Shown here piece by piece: positions 1,477 through 57,786 of a stretch of DNA of 64,000 nt. The position numbers were made by a program, and so were the translations under genes. The notes under the pieces are model-generated. The model ran no database searches. It saw only the letters and a program-made list of their open reading frames with translations, and was not told where the DNA came from. Position 1 is the first letter of the stretch. Every line of letters starts with the position of its first letter. Location of the stretch: NCBI RefSeq assembly GCF_014490665.1, contig NZ_CP061038.1, positions 2,294,001 to 2,358,000 of the forward strand, written 5' to 3'. This DNA is from Sphingomonas alpina. Its GTDB lineage: Bacteria; Pseudomonadota; Alphaproteobacteria; Sphingomonadales; Sphingomonadaceae.

Positions 1477-2855
1477 CCGACTTCGCCACTCTGCTGCAGC
1501 CGGATCGCGGCCAGGCGGCTCGCACCATTCATGTCGTCCATCCCGACGCCTTCGCCGACTGGCTCGCCAGCCAACCCGCGCGTGTGCGAACAGCGGTCGC
1601 GGCGCACCGCCTGACCGGTAAGGCGGGCAACCGCGCCGTCCTGCCGGGTGACGGGGCCGAAGACTGGTCGGTGCTGCTGGTGTGCAACGAGGCGGCCAGT
1701 TCGCCATGGCGGATCGCCTCGCTCGGCGAGTCGCTGCCCGAGGGCAGCTACAGGCTCGCGACCGGCGAACCCGGCGCAGGGATGCTCGGCTGGATGCTCG
1801 CGCAGCATCGCTTCGAGCGCTATCGCAAGCGCGAGGCGATCGGCCCGCGCATCCTGCTCACCGGGGAACCTGCGAGGATCGAGGAGACCGTCCGCCTCGC
1901 CGCCGCCACGGCACAGGTCCGCGACTTGGTCGACACCGCCGCCGCCGACCTCGGCCCGGCTGAACTGGAGGCCGAGGCTGCAACGCTGGCCAAGATGCAC
2001 GGCGCGACGCTGACCGTGACCAGGGGCGAGCCGCTCGCCAAGGGCTATCCGATGATCCAGGCGGTCGGCCAGGCGGCCGCCAAGGGGCGCGAACCACGAC
2101 TGATCGAACTCGAATGGGGCGACCCGAAACATCCTCGCATCGCGTTGATCGGCAAGGGCGTGTGCTTCGATTCCGGCGGGCTCGACATCAAGCCGAGCGC
2201 CGGCATGCGGCTGATGAAGAAGGATATGGGCGGTGCGGCGCACGCATTGGCACTGGCCGGGCTGGTGATGGCCGCACGGCTTAAGGTTCGCCTCCATCTG
2301 CTCATTCCGGCAGTCGAGAATAGCATCGCCGGCAATGCGTTTCGCCCCGGTGACGTGCTCGCGAGCCGCAAGGGCCTGACGGTCGAAAACACCAACACTG
2401 ATGCCGAAGGCCGGCTGGTGCTTGGTGATGCGATCACCAGGGCAGCCGAGGACAAGCCGGAATTGATCATCGATTTCGCCACGCTGACCGGCGCGGCGCG
2501 CGTCGCGCTCGGCCCCGACCTCCCGGCGACCTTCGTCAATGACGAGCCGCTGGCCGAGGCGCTATTCGCAGCGGCTGCCGAGGTCGGCGATCCGCTCTGG
2601 CGCATGCCGCTATGGGACGGTTATGACGAGTTGCTCAAATCCGACATCGCCGATCTGGTCAATTCGGCCGACAGCAGCTTCGCCGGCGCGACCACCGCAG
2701 CCTTGTTCCTGCGTCGCTTCATCCCCGAAGGGACCGCTTGGGCCCATCTCGACACCTTCGCCTGGCGGCCATCGGCCAAACCGGGGCGCCCCAAGGGCGG
2801 CGATGCGCTTGGCCTCAGGGCAACCTGGGCGCTGCTCAAAACGCGCTATGGGTAA
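1473..2855 (+). CDS. Leucyl aminopeptidase family (M17) metallopeptidase
   Basis: A 460-residue cytosolic M17 aminopeptidase that would remove N-terminal residues from peptides using two metal ions. The signature NTDAEGRLVLGDA is present near residue 311, and the metal/catalytic lysine segment GKGVCFDSGGLDIKP is near 226. The N-terminal domain is diverged, as is usual in this family. Length is slightly below the ~490 of classical PepA. It starts inside the stop of the serine hydrolase gene (ATGA), consistent with a two-gene operon. Nothing follows on this strand except the non-coding element beginning about 47 nt downstream. Confidence 0.92.
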   Translation: MTDFATLLQPDRGQAARTIHVVHPDAFADWLASQPARVRTAVAAHRLTGKAGNRAVLPGDGAEDWSVLLVCNEAASSPWRIASLGESLPEGSYRLATGEPGAGMLGWMLAQHRFERYRKREAIGPRILLTGEPARIEETVRLAAATAQVRDLVDTAAADLGPAELEAEAATLAKMHGATLTVTRGEPLAKGYPMIQAVGQAAAKGREPRLIELEWGDPKHPRIALIGKGVCFDSGGLDIKPSAGMRLMKKDMGGAAHALALAGLVMAARLKVRLHLLIPAVENSIAGNAFRPGDVLASRKGLTVENTNTDAEGRLVLGDAITRAAEDKPELIIDFATLTGAARVALGPDLPATFVNDEPLAEALFAAAAEVGDPLWRMPLWDGYDELLKSDIADLVNSADSSFAGATTAALFLRRFIPEGTAWAHLDTFAWRPSAKPGRPKGGDALGLRATWALLKTRYG

Positions 2856-2901
2856 GCGATAGCGGTTCCGAAACGGATCGCCAGCCAGCGCCGGCGGTGC
2901 C

Positions 2902-2929
2902 GATTCAACCCTGGAGCGAGTCATGACAG
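2902..2929 (+). promoter_or_regulatory. Conserved upstream motif of element A (GATTCAA-N15-TGACAG)
   Basis: GATTCAA at 2902-2908 is followed after exactly 15 bases by TGACAG at 2924-2929. The same pair with the same 15-base gap is found upstream of the other two elements (27846-27873 and 57519-57546, minus strand). It lies ~60 nt ahead of a boxA-like sequence, so it is probably the promoter of element A. GATTC is also a GANTC (CcrM methylation) site. It does not match a textbook sigma70 or sigma54 promoter, so the sigma factor is open. Confidence 0.5.
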
Positions 2930-2965
2930 CGTTGCGCCGGACGGGATGCCAACGGCGCTCCGCCC

Positions 2966-2980
2966 CGCTCTTTGACATGA
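2966..2980 (+). promoter_or_regulatory. boxA-like antitermination sequence, element A
   Basis: CGCTCTTTGACATGA closely matches the boxA of rRNA leaders (GCTCTTTRACA), the RNA site bound by NusB-S10 to protect untranslated transcripts from Rho. No rRNA operon is nearby. Near-identical sequence starts element C (57467-57481, minus), and a variant starts element B (27794-27810, minus). A boxA here implies a long untranslated RNA is made from this intergenic region. Function is inferred from the motif and its conservation in three copies. Confidence 0.6.
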
Positions 2981-3197
2981 CCGGTAAATATCGCGCGTTT
3001 TCGCGCCCGCTGTTTTGATCGTAACAGCGGTCAGCTCACCCCTGTTATTCCGCTGCTCCACCCCTGTTCCACCCCTGTTAACGAACACAGCGGAAGAGGG
3101 GTCAAGCCCTTGTGAATGGGCTGAAAATTGGCGTTCCAAATCCAACATAACAGGGGTGAGGTTTTTTTGTCGAAATAACAGCGGAAAACAGCGGTCA
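2966..3197 (+). ncRNA. Element A: boxA-led array of AACAGCGG and AACAGGGGTG words
   Basis: This gap between the aminopeptidase and tpiA has no gene. It is packed with two short words in both orientations. AACAGCGG occurs at 3023, 3177 and 3187, with its complement at 3007. AACAGGGGTG occurs at 3149, with complements at 3037, 3059 and 3070. The first pair forms a hairpin (3007-3014 with 3023-3030) with an 8-base loop. A late block (AAATCCAAC at 3138, T7 tract, CGAAAT, tandem AACAGCGG pair) aligns with elements B and C. Two words are used here, whereas B and C each use one. The end touches the tpiA stop codon. I read it as a structured RNA; a DNA site array is the alternative. Confidence 0.6.
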
Positions 3198-3198
3198 A

Positions 3199-3943
3199 TT
3201 ACAGTGCCGCCCCGGCTTCGATGATCGGCACGAATTTCGCTGCCGTCAGGCTCGCCCCGCCGACCAGTGCGCCATCGACATCGCCCGCACCGAGCAGCTG
3301 GCCTGCATTGTCGCCCGTTACCGAACCGCCATAGAGCAGCCGTACCGCATTCGCCTCATCACCGATCAGCGCGCGCAGCTTTACGCGGATCGCACCGTGC
3401 ATCGCCGCCACATCGGCGATGGTCGGCGTCCGCCCGGTACCGATCGCCCAGACCGGCTCATAAGCGATCGACAACCAGGTTGCGCCAGCACCTTCGGGCA
3501 GAGACCCCGCAAGCTGCCCCGTCACCACCGCCTCGGCACGCCCGGCGTCACGTTCCTCCAGCGTTTCGCCAACGCACAGGATCGCGTCCAGACCCTGGCG
3601 GTGCAGTGCCTCGGCCTTGGCCTTCACCTCCGCATCGCTTTCATGCTGATCGGCTCGGCGCTCGCTATGGCCGACGATCGAGAAGCGCGCGCCGGCCTCG
3701 CGGATCATCGCCGCCGAAACGCACCCGGTATGCGCGCCCTTGTCGGCAGCATGGACATCCTGCGCGCCGATCGCGAGATCGGGGCCGCGCCCGGCCGCCG
3801 CAATCAGCGTTGCCGGCACCGCAATGCCGACATCGACGCCCGGATGGGCCAGCGCCACAGTGGCGATCGCGTCGAGGCTCGCTCAGTGCGGCGAGATCGC
3901 CGTTCATCTTCCAATTGCCCGCGATCAGCTTGCGTCGTGTCAT
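3199..3943 (-). pseudogene. tpiA: Triosephosphate isomerase, frameshifted (one extra base)
   Basis: Triosephosphate isomerase interconverts DHAP and glyceraldehyde 3-phosphate. The N-terminus (MTRRKLIAGNWKMNG) starts at 3943; the rest, from LDAIATVALAHPGVDVG onward, is in another frame. The catalytic lysine (NWKMNG), histidine (VGHSERR), glutamate (AYEPVWAIGTG) and phosphate loop (LYGGSV) are all intact. Removing one C in the coding strand near 3876-3877 restores a continuous protein of ~247 residues, the normal length. Because the enzyme is central and the rest of the sequence is undamaged, a sequencing or assembly error is more likely than a true pseudogene. It converges on element A. Confidence 0.9.
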
Positions 3944-27543: not shown

Positions 27544-27600
27544 TCGCGCCGCGAGGCGCCCCACTCGCCGACATCTCTTCACGAGAGCGATTCGGGGCCG

Positions 27601-27810
27601 AAATGATGCTGTTTCTGCTGTTATTTCGGCGCCAATTTTTTCCATGCTGTTAAGTTGGATTTCGGGTTCAAAATTCTATCCTGTTTCCAGTCTCTTACGA
27701 TCAATTATGCTGTTATTGAATAACAGCATGAAAACAGCACGGAACAGCATGCTGTTTTCGACGCAACAGCATGCGCGAGCGTTCAGTTTTGACGACAATG
27801 AGAAAGAGCG
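27601..27810 (-). ncRNA. Element B: boxA-led array of AACAGCATG words
   Basis: Second copy of the family, read on the minus strand. AACAGCATG or its complement CATGCTGTT, whole or trimmed by 1-2 bases, occurs about nine times: 27606, 27616, 27643, 27707, 27722, 27733, 27743, 27748, 27765. Hairpin 1 (27748-27756 with 27765-27773) has a 9-bp stem and 8-base loop, as in A and C. The segment 27707-27729 is an 11-bp perfect inverted repeat around one base. The late block GTTGGATTT (plus strand 27654-27662), A6 tract and CGAAAT plus tandem words match element A. The rest of the 27544-28119 gap holds the upstream motif and no gene I can support. Confidence 0.6.
27794..27810 (-). promoter_or_regulatory. 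boxA-like antitermination sequence, element B
   Basis: Minus-strand CGCTCTTTCTCATTGTC: the CGCTCTTT core is intact and the downstream CATTGT resembles rRNA-leader boxA context, although the GA after CTTT is replaced by CT. Position relative to the upstream motif and to hairpin 1 matches elements A and C. Confidence 0.5.
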
Positions 27811-27845
27811 TGGCGAAGGCCCGGTAGAGCCCCGTCCGGTATATG

Positions 27846-27873
27846 CTGCCAGGGTCGATATTGGATTTGAATC
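27846..27873 (-). promoter_or_regulatory. Conserved upstream motif of element B (GATTCAA-N15-TGGCAG)
   Basis: Minus-strand GATTCAA (27867-27873) and TGGCAG (27846-27851) separated by exactly 15 bases, as in A and C. It is followed by CCGGACGGG, also present after the element A motif. Probable promoter of element B, pointing away from the gene at 28120. Confidence 0.5.
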
Positions 27874-28119
27874 GCCCTCACCGGAACTGGACGATAGGCA
27901 CCAGGCCCTCAACAACGGCGCGCCGGGAGCTGGGCGTAGCAACAGCGAACCATGGCAGGATGGCATCGCAACGCGCTGTATCGATGTAGGATCGGCTATA
28001 AACGTGCGTTCATCGATGATATCCTCCGGCCAACAATCAGGCACAGGAGACCGAATGTCGTTTCTTCGTTTGGCGCCCCACCCCTGTCGCTTGCCGATAC
28101 AGCGCTGAGGTCCGCGCCC

Positions 28120-57189: not shown

Positions 57190-57249
57190 GACGGATCGAG
57201 TTTCAACCAAGCAAGGCGAACCGCGAGTCGCACCCAGTTGGAAAGGGCT

Positions 57250-57481
57250 GTGCTGGCTGTTCCTGGCTGTTATTCCGGGATAAGTTTTTTTGCTGGCCAT
57301 TACGCTGAGATTGCAAGCTTGATGCCATCCTTTTTCAAAGGCTTAAGCTGAATCCGGCGGTTGTCGATAACAGCCAGCGAACAGCCAGTTATCAGCCAGA
57401 TATCAGCGAACGATGCTGGCTGTTATGGCCGGAACAGCCAGCGCAGAGATGTTCGAGATTTTCCTGTCATGTCAAAGAGCG
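57250..57481 (-). ncRNA. Element C: boxA-led array of AACAGCCAGC words
   Basis: Third copy, read on the minus strand. AACAGCCAG(C) or its complement occurs at 57252, 57263, 57369, 57380, 57415 and 57433, with a trimmed copy at 57392. Hairpin 1 (57415-57424 with 57433-57442) has a 10-bp stem and an 8-base loop. Late features: a degenerate copy of the A/B late block near 57304, an A7 tract (RNA sense), CGGAAT, and two words in tandem. The remainder of the 57190-57786 gap contains the upstream motif and no gene I can support. Confidence 0.6.
57467..57481 (-). promoter_or_regulatory. boxA-like antitermination sequence, element C
   Basis: Minus-strand CGCTCTTTGACATGA, identical over 15 bases to the sequence at 2966-2980 in element A and matching the rRNA-leader boxA core. 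Same distance from the upstream motif and hairpin 1 as in A. Confidence 0.6.
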
Positions 57482-57518
57482 GGCGGAAGGCCTGAACAGC
57501 GCTCCATCGGGATTCACC

Positions 57519-57546
57519 CTGCCATGACGCGCACCACTATTGAATC
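57519..57546 (-). promoter_or_regulatory. Conserved upstream motif of element C (GATTCAA-N15-TGGCAG)
   Basis: Minus-strand GATTCAA (57540-57546) then 15 bases then TGGCAG (57519-57524). The spacer ends GCGTCA, close to GAGTCA in element A. Probable promoter, 240 bp downstream of the pgk stop on the same strand. Confidence 0.5.
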
Positions 57547-57786
57547 AAGGACAGTCGAGAGCGACGCTTGCCGCCGACTGTCGATCCGTCGACCTAAGGC
57601 AGCAGATGCATGAAAAACCGGTAGAGGTAGGCGCCCTCCCCCGCTCTCGTCAGTCATGCGGCTGAGATGCGCGAGCCGGTCATGGAACGTTGCCGGCAGA
57701 GCCGACCGCGCCCGCGGGTTTTCACGAGCCCCGACGCAACGGCCAATCACGGGCAATTTATGCTGCGATGCAGCAAGTTCCCGGTA

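Follow-up and report, generated by a model that had tools for sequence, protein, structure and literature searches.

Element A is an intergenic array of short repeated words in the genome of Sphingomonas alpina, located at 2902..3206 on the plus strand (the whole as aligned in alignment A2) of a window of 64,000 nucleotides, the window being the entire stretch analysed (contig NZ_CP061038.1, positions 2,294,001 to 2,358,000). It is discussed here together with its homologues and with the genes of the DUF5681 protein family that have arrays of the same kind directly upstream.

Organization of element A

The element opens with GATTCAA (2902..2908), the reverse complement of the TTGAATC in the early codons of many DUF5681 genes, and continues with TCATGACA (2921..2928), which has the appearance of a reversed gene head (TGNCATG with its start codon). 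A hairpin with limits set by eye (2939..2966) stands immediately 5' of the boxA-like sequence CGCTCTTTGACATG (2966..2979), which resembles the boxA of rRNA operons. The words begin with a first word hairpin of CCGCTGTT and AACAGCGG (3007..3030), followed by a CTGTT word cluster with CACCCCTGTT at 3037, 3059 and 3070 (3037..3079) and by AACACAGCGG (3084..3093), the 3' partner in a second word hairpin that is imperfect in element A. Further downstream are the conserved ATCCAAC block with the word AACAGGGGTG behind it (3140..3158, the word at 3149-3158), a T run (3162..3168) whose place is taken by an A-rich run in the copies seen of word classes II-V, and tandem AACAGCGG words at 3177 and 3187 in a step of 10 nt (3177..3194), all on the plus strand. 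Every part named in the original prediction is present (GATTCAA-N15-TGRCAG, CGCTCTTT, the word hairpin, CTGTT words, ATCCAAC, A/T run and tandem AACAG words), and its count of four copies each of AACAGCGG and AACAGGGG over both strands is matched. The motif AACAG[C/G]GG occurs ten times in the window, eight of these within 300 nt from position 3006, and in 60 first-order Markov windows clusters of any of the three words reach two copies at most.

A genome-wide family in six word classes

Elements A, B and C share homology and part order and lie in the three gaps of the window where they had been predicted. Element B (27594..27874, minus strand) is a class III array of the word AACAGCATG, and element C (57242..57547, minus strand) is a class II array of AACAGCCAG. 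The idea of a local three-copy family is ruled out by many further matches genome-wide, and the genome instead holds at least 117 classified copies. Blast with element A gives 59 matches in the genome at E up to 1, the element B query added further places, and the sequence-only model R1, built from 41 copies, gives 155 matches. From the 5.2-Mb genome 122 copies were extracted, 118 of them with a GATTCA-type anchor; 117 belong to six word classes, and among the five without a clear class some may be chance matches. Class I (AACAG[C/G]GGT) has 40 copies, class II (AACAGCCAG) 35, class III (AACAGCAT) 12, class IV (AACAGGGGC) 19, class V (AACAGGGAG) 9 and class VI (AACAGGAG) 2. The closest relative of a copy has the same class label in 114 of 122 cases. 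The words are conserved, in that exact words and words with one mismatch number 294 and 70 in class II, 139 and 13 in class IV, and 63 and 12 in class V. Three weak places (1570112, 3258648, 2812176) were left out of the copy count and two split or doubled places (2463435 and 3827536/3827779) were counted once each. As the search of this genome scored 150 of 1,960 candidates and those of the genus and order scored six and four candidates per genome, copies and genomes may be missing from these counts.

The use of two words had been regarded as special to element A and as a sign of two combined specificities. The two words are not peculiar to it, because 38 of the 40 class I copies contain both AACAGCGG and AACAGGGGT (the other two contain AACAGGGGT only) and the array upstream of the class I DUF5681 gene also holds both (four and three, respectively), and a single degenerate word, AACAG[C/G]GGT, takes the place of the two specificities.

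The expectation of further copies in related genomes is borne out, with many in some relatives. The family is present in 9 of 295 genomes of the genus (E 1e-5); a sample of 396 genomes of the order gave matches only in the S. alpina genome and in one weak case (G481, one match, E 4e-8), and 40 relatives gave five weak matches (E about 0.005, one of which, L050, reached E 0.0005 with the element profile) and zero strong ones. Rfam gave no match in the window at the gathering score and none up to E 5 over 2850-3260, and no description of the family was found in the open-access literature searched, in keeping with the earlier statement that no known family has such a layout; novelty is judged on these open-access searches alone. 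A phage or plasmid repeat was rejected as an identity for the element, since a Blastn search with element A had no match among 72,556 plasmid records or 50,697 phage records. Viral contigs scanned with two patterns yielded 5 and 50 stretches, of which none reached E 0.01 against the element profile and the best (L255) scored 0.022, and a contig labelled 'Caballeronia' had no match to that profile.

Other repeats accompany the family in places. In 120 stretches of the S. alpina genome (678 kb) there are 25 matches to a palindromic intergenic repeat, CTTCGACAAGCTCAG / GCCCTTCGACAGGCTCAGGG. In L156 and L176 AGCTGGCTGTT is repeated in tandem every 11 bp, about 12 times in L156, which represents a local word expansion. 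At or close to some arrays of classes II and IV (L123, L127, L139, L027) there is a distinct intergenic motif, TTTCGAGTTGA...GATCC, which may be a target or another repeat.

DUF5681 genes and their words

Among 622 predicted proteins near copies in the 120 stretches there are clusters of three to eight like proteins, one of which consists of DUF5681 genes. The genes adjoining special class I, II and IV arrays, one each, encode the motif SGNPxGRP and belong to Pfam DUF5681 (PF18932). A whole-genome search finds five DUF5681 genes (E 0.001), the fourth located at a class III array and the fifth at another place, where it is preceded by class V words. Within 730 nt upstream there are 4+3 words of class I, 8 of class II, 7 of class III, 5 of class IV and 8 of class V at the respective gene, with zero words of the other counted classes, such that all five genes have an upstream array of their own class with five different words. 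These are also the five commonest scattered words, and the probability that five independent draws all give different words is 0.017. The two of the five partner proteins that were scanned match no Pfam family other than DUF5681 up to E 1, and no cognate HUH (Y1) transposase was found in that scan.

The pairing of gene and word extends in part to other genomes. The word AACAGGTG is found in 19 of 74 records of genome ERG5 and in 0 of 122 S. alpina copies, and a AACAGGTG gene is present in ERG5 and absent from S. alpina. Gene words are also scattered in G254 (AACAGGGCG, 1 of 6 elements), G281 and G128 (AACAGCGGAA, 1 of 4 each) and G259 (AGCAGGGG, 1 of 3). In ERG5 and So64.6b there is also a longer, second subtype of DUF5681 whose genes are accompanied by TGCGGGA words, and the gene-to-word rule led to the prediction and finding of previously unseen scattered TGCGGGA arrays. 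The triple-TGCGGGA pattern gives 118 overlapping matches (57+61) at 39 or more places in ERG5 and 17 (7+10) at 10 places in So64.6b, with zero matches in the S. alpina genome, G254, G010 and G045, and zero for a control pattern; among the places listed, two in ERG5 and one in So64.6b adjoin the DUF5681 genes themselves. Several of these arrays (L352-L371; So64.6b, ERG5) are followed by GAGATATGGGACACC...ATATCTC, which resembles the end of another repeat or insertion sequence. Across 18 genes with words assigned by the author, likeness of protein correlates with likeness of word (Mantel r 0.45, P 0.0002), to which shared ancestry contributes.

The AACAGGTG gene of ERG5 sits where the class III gene sits in S. 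alpina, with the same neighbouring sequence by eye, and no further type-1 gene was seen in ERG5, which suggests a shift of specificity in that genome. The class III arrays of ERG5 would accordingly be the older and the AACAGGTG arrays the newer ones. Seven sites in ERG5 carry one array of each kind, 200-330 bp apart from start to start.

A gene head in the scattered copies

A start codon precedes TTGAATC by 13 nt (ATG-N13-TTGAATC) in 11 of 26 gene loci, and L174, L328, L336 and L338 have TAGAATC at the same distance. The mirror image of this arrangement is present in 46 of 118 scattered copies, where a reversed start codon follows GATTCAA by 13 nt (CAT at offset 20); at six other offsets tested CAT occurs in 0-6 copies, and the CA of the reversed TGNCATG is kept in 93 of 118. 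The 12 TGCGGGA arrays read have TTGAATC (7) or GATTCAA (5), and several follow a start-codon-like ATG by eye. By these features a scattered array resembles a DUF5681 control region together with the head of the gene.

Mobility and class change at orthologous sites

Where copies at unrelated sites are nearly identical (L155/L160, 95%), their homology ends sharply near GATTCAA and past the last word. The L160 site lacks the array in ERG5 and So64.6b, where both flanks are present; divergence of the intergenic DNA at this one empty site obscures any target duplication. These borders and the presence or absence at one site, together with the patchy distribution over genomes, are also what would be expected of a purely selfish, non-autonomous mobile repeat that is useless to the host and limited in its spread by target immunity of the cognate protein. 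That alternative, which shares the DNA-binding core of the explanation favoured below and differs on role, is a serious possibility of somewhat less than even standing. A transposase, a terminal inverted repeat and a target duplication were not found in the sequence read, the words are intact in copies at orthologous sites, and arrays of other classes stand at old sites, all of which speak against it.

Both flanks could be matched in ERG5 or So64.6b for 25 S. alpina loci; the class agrees at 7 of them, differs at 16 and is unassigned at 2 (including L189, unassigned on both sides), and none of the arrays is inverted. Class II in S. alpina corresponds to class III in ERG5 at L035, L124, L148, L156 and L181, and the place orthologous to element B in ERG5 (L207) also holds a class III array. 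A comparison of spacers in 21 parsable two-flank rows rules out random insertion as the sole cause of the class differences. In the eight like-class rows, two of which come from the same ERG5 site, spacer likeness exceeds background (P 0.001-0.021), with the 5' part at background in L043 and L116. The spacers of the 13 rows with unlike or then unassigned class are at background level (lowest P 0.05), and the 5' part is nevertheless alike in L020, L035, L126 and L150 (P 0.001-0.03). Since spacer likeness disappears together with the word and the 5' part may persist, the word part appears to have been exchanged as a block.

Genomic placement and spacing

With flanking genes predicted by our own codon score, 113 copies have a gene on both sides, of which 55 lie between convergent, 48 between tandem (25 + 23 by orientation) and 10 between divergent genes. 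Gaps of less than 5 kb between copies number 2 against 13.4 expected, and none of 5,000 simulations was so low. Same-class pairs are fewer than expected among neighbours closer than 20 kb (0/30 vs 6.7, P 0.0004), 30 kb (6/60 vs 13.3, P 0.011) and 50 kb (9/84 vs 18.8, P 0.004), and the minimum same-class distance is 20 kb in class I, 25 kb in classes II and IV, 69 kb in class III and 204 kb in class V. A second array at 3827536, left out of this test, seems to be of class I beside one of class V, from the few bases seen. ERG5, where distances were taken within contigs, shows no like pair among 12 pairs closer than 20 kb with both classes assigned, after removal of two of 14 that were opposite-strand matches on one element each. 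This exclusion within a class resembles transposition immunity, which favours a selfish repeat, and it also counts in favour of the explanation proposed in the Discussion.

The RNA-like part

The original prediction of a transcribed, structured RNA family stands in part: the family is non-coding and real and has an RNA-like part. The hairpin arms before CGCTCTTT fit their own partner better than swapped arms (-14.1 vs -12.1 kcal/mol, P about 1e-6, better in 78-81 of 113 copies), with P 0.05 within class I, 0.001 within II and a non-significant 0.47 within IV; in comparison with mononucleotide shuffles this stretch stands out only weakly (mean z -0.47). A hairpin kept by compensating changes is followed by a boxA-like sequence, as in an antitermination site of the rrn type, and GCTNTTT is invariant across the 41 rows of alignment A2. 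In RNAalifold the free CTGTT word pairs with the AACAG word before the A/T run, with change on both sides in 6 of 17 predicted pairs. From such evidence the whole element could be a structured RNA family with an rRNA-like antitermination signal, in which the words form alternative stems and some T runs are terminators, an explanation that we regard as unlikely. Its paired changes are confounded because the words within an element mostly share one class, and by eye the class I word hairpins often pair C-words with G-words. The A-rich run that replaces the T run in other classes also opposes it, and it leaves the match of gene to word unexplained. That the words serve RNA structure is not adopted here because of the gene-word pairing, the absence of GCTCTTT within 730 nt upstream of 22 of 22 gene loci and from 12 of 12 TGCGGGA arrays, and the word orientation, which can flip at the same place (L166, L170; by eye).

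The DUF5681 protein and terminase genes

The structure model of the protein has a disordered N-terminal third that holds SGNPxGRP, followed by a mostly helical part with some strands. The stretch after GRP varies in length and charge between proteins of different words and may hold the word specificity. The next gene downstream of DUF5681 encodes Terminase_6C, a terminase RNaseH-like domain, in all three loci tested, which belong to two genomes that do not carry the element (L310 and L330 in G047, L312 in G008); in L310 the upstream gene is a DNA methylase with a weak ParB-like part. As DUF5681 precedes a terminase-like gene in both G047 and G008, a phage-packaging ancestry of the family is plausible. 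In a further alternative DUF5681 would be a small terminase and the arrays pac- or cos-like starts for packaging of chromosomal DNA; the array lies next to the gene and extends into it, a position common for pac. This explanation is improbable, given that by eye, with no family search, no terminase was seen near the four S. alpina DUF5681 genes with translated neighbours. No small-terminase structure match was obtained, which is itself not evidence of difference. The sole paper found in the open-access literature searched that names DUF5681 (PMC8954984) gives no function in the part available, which likewise does not favour packaging.

Discussion

Element A is probably a binding-site array for one DUF5681 protein out of several, and the arrays would have spread through copying of gene control regions. 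The computed observations behind this proposal are the gene-word match in the S. alpina genome, the gene-head relic, the presence or absence of an array at one site, the class change at orthologous sites and the class-specific spacing. Each DUF5681 protein would have its own word of 9-10 bases, and several words with an A/T run and the conserved block would make up an array. A DUF5681 gene is probably self-regulated, because an array lies directly upstream of it. The scattered copies would be control-region copies ending at the TTGAATC of the gene's early codons, presumably moved by an enzyme to intergenic sites, mostly gene ends. The protein probably binds co-operatively over the helically stepped words and forms a nucleoprotein landmark, with same-class arrays keeping apart (none closer than 20 kb among 122 copies). 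After a shift of specificity, arrays of the new word would arise beside or instead of the old ones, as the case of ERG5 suggests. A role in chromosome organisation at gene ends is a working guess, and selfish spread is nearly as likely.

Several results weigh against this proposal. Among the classes taken singly, spacing is significant for II only (P 0.004; I 0.24, III 0.36, IV 0.12, V 0.18), and for same-class neighbours closer than 10 kb P is 0.08 (0/10 vs 2.2 expected). The three DUF5681 genes found in ERG5 match none of its 27 class III, 6 class I and 6 class IV arrays (of 72), AACAGCCAG occurs in 4 of 6 G254 elements with no gene for it there, and class VI, with two copies, has no gene in S. 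alpina. The gene words AACAGGGAA (four genomes) and AACAGGGAG (G254, G259) are in none of the few scattered elements sampled in those genomes, and the S. alpina class V gene has no TTGAATC head. The hairpin and boxA-like part of the scattered copies are not accounted for by DNA binding. A DNA-binding fold is putative, as the structure model is middling (pLDDT 73, pTM 0.51) and no solved relative was found.

The arrays share features with several known systems. In REP/RAYT systems a genome likewise has several repeat classes with intergenic copies, each class tied to one gene with the same repeat beside it, whereas the partner here is DUF5681 rather than an HUH transposase, the unit measures about 300 nt and combines several words with an A/T run and a hairpin/boxA-like part instead of being a palindrome of 20-40 nt, and the array class often differs at orthologous sites. 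A phage small terminase and its pac/cos site share with DUF5681 the place directly before a terminase-like gene, seen in the three non-carrier loci, and the repeated words beside the gene, but the chromosomal DUF5681 genes with neighbours read stand alone and their words are at more than 100 sites. MatP/matS, Noc/NBS and ParB/parS also pair one protein, putatively DNA-binding in the present case, with many dispersed and widely spaced sites; unlike them, the arrays are multi-word, there are five parallel protein-word pairs in one genome, and the sites appear to derive from a gene head and have words that turn over between species. The leader of rRNA operons, with its boxB hairpin and boxA, resembles the scattered type-1 copies, in which a hairpin precedes a GCTCTTTGACAT-like sequence, but no rRNA follows here and the boxA-like part is absent upstream of the genes and from the 12 TGCGGGA arrays read. 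As far as the searches show, such a protein-and-site system appears not to have been described before.

A more tentative extension is that some Sphingomonas maintain parallel, non-overlapping sets of landmarks, each recognised by a dedicated DUF5681 protein with phage-packaging ancestry and renewed by copying of the gene head, and that a change of specificity triggers array replacement at the old sites. Such turnover would be a bacterial parallel to the fast turnover of recombination or centromere marks. DUF5681 is a Pfam family of unknown function, and the gene-word match provides a direct handle on it because every protein can be paired with a predicted DNA word and with the genome sites that carry it. 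If binding were demonstrated, several related proteins with different words in one genome and orthologous sites with a changed word would constitute a natural experiment on how specificity changes along with dozens of sites. The class-specific spacing allows direct tests of an immunity rule or of a role in chromosome layout.
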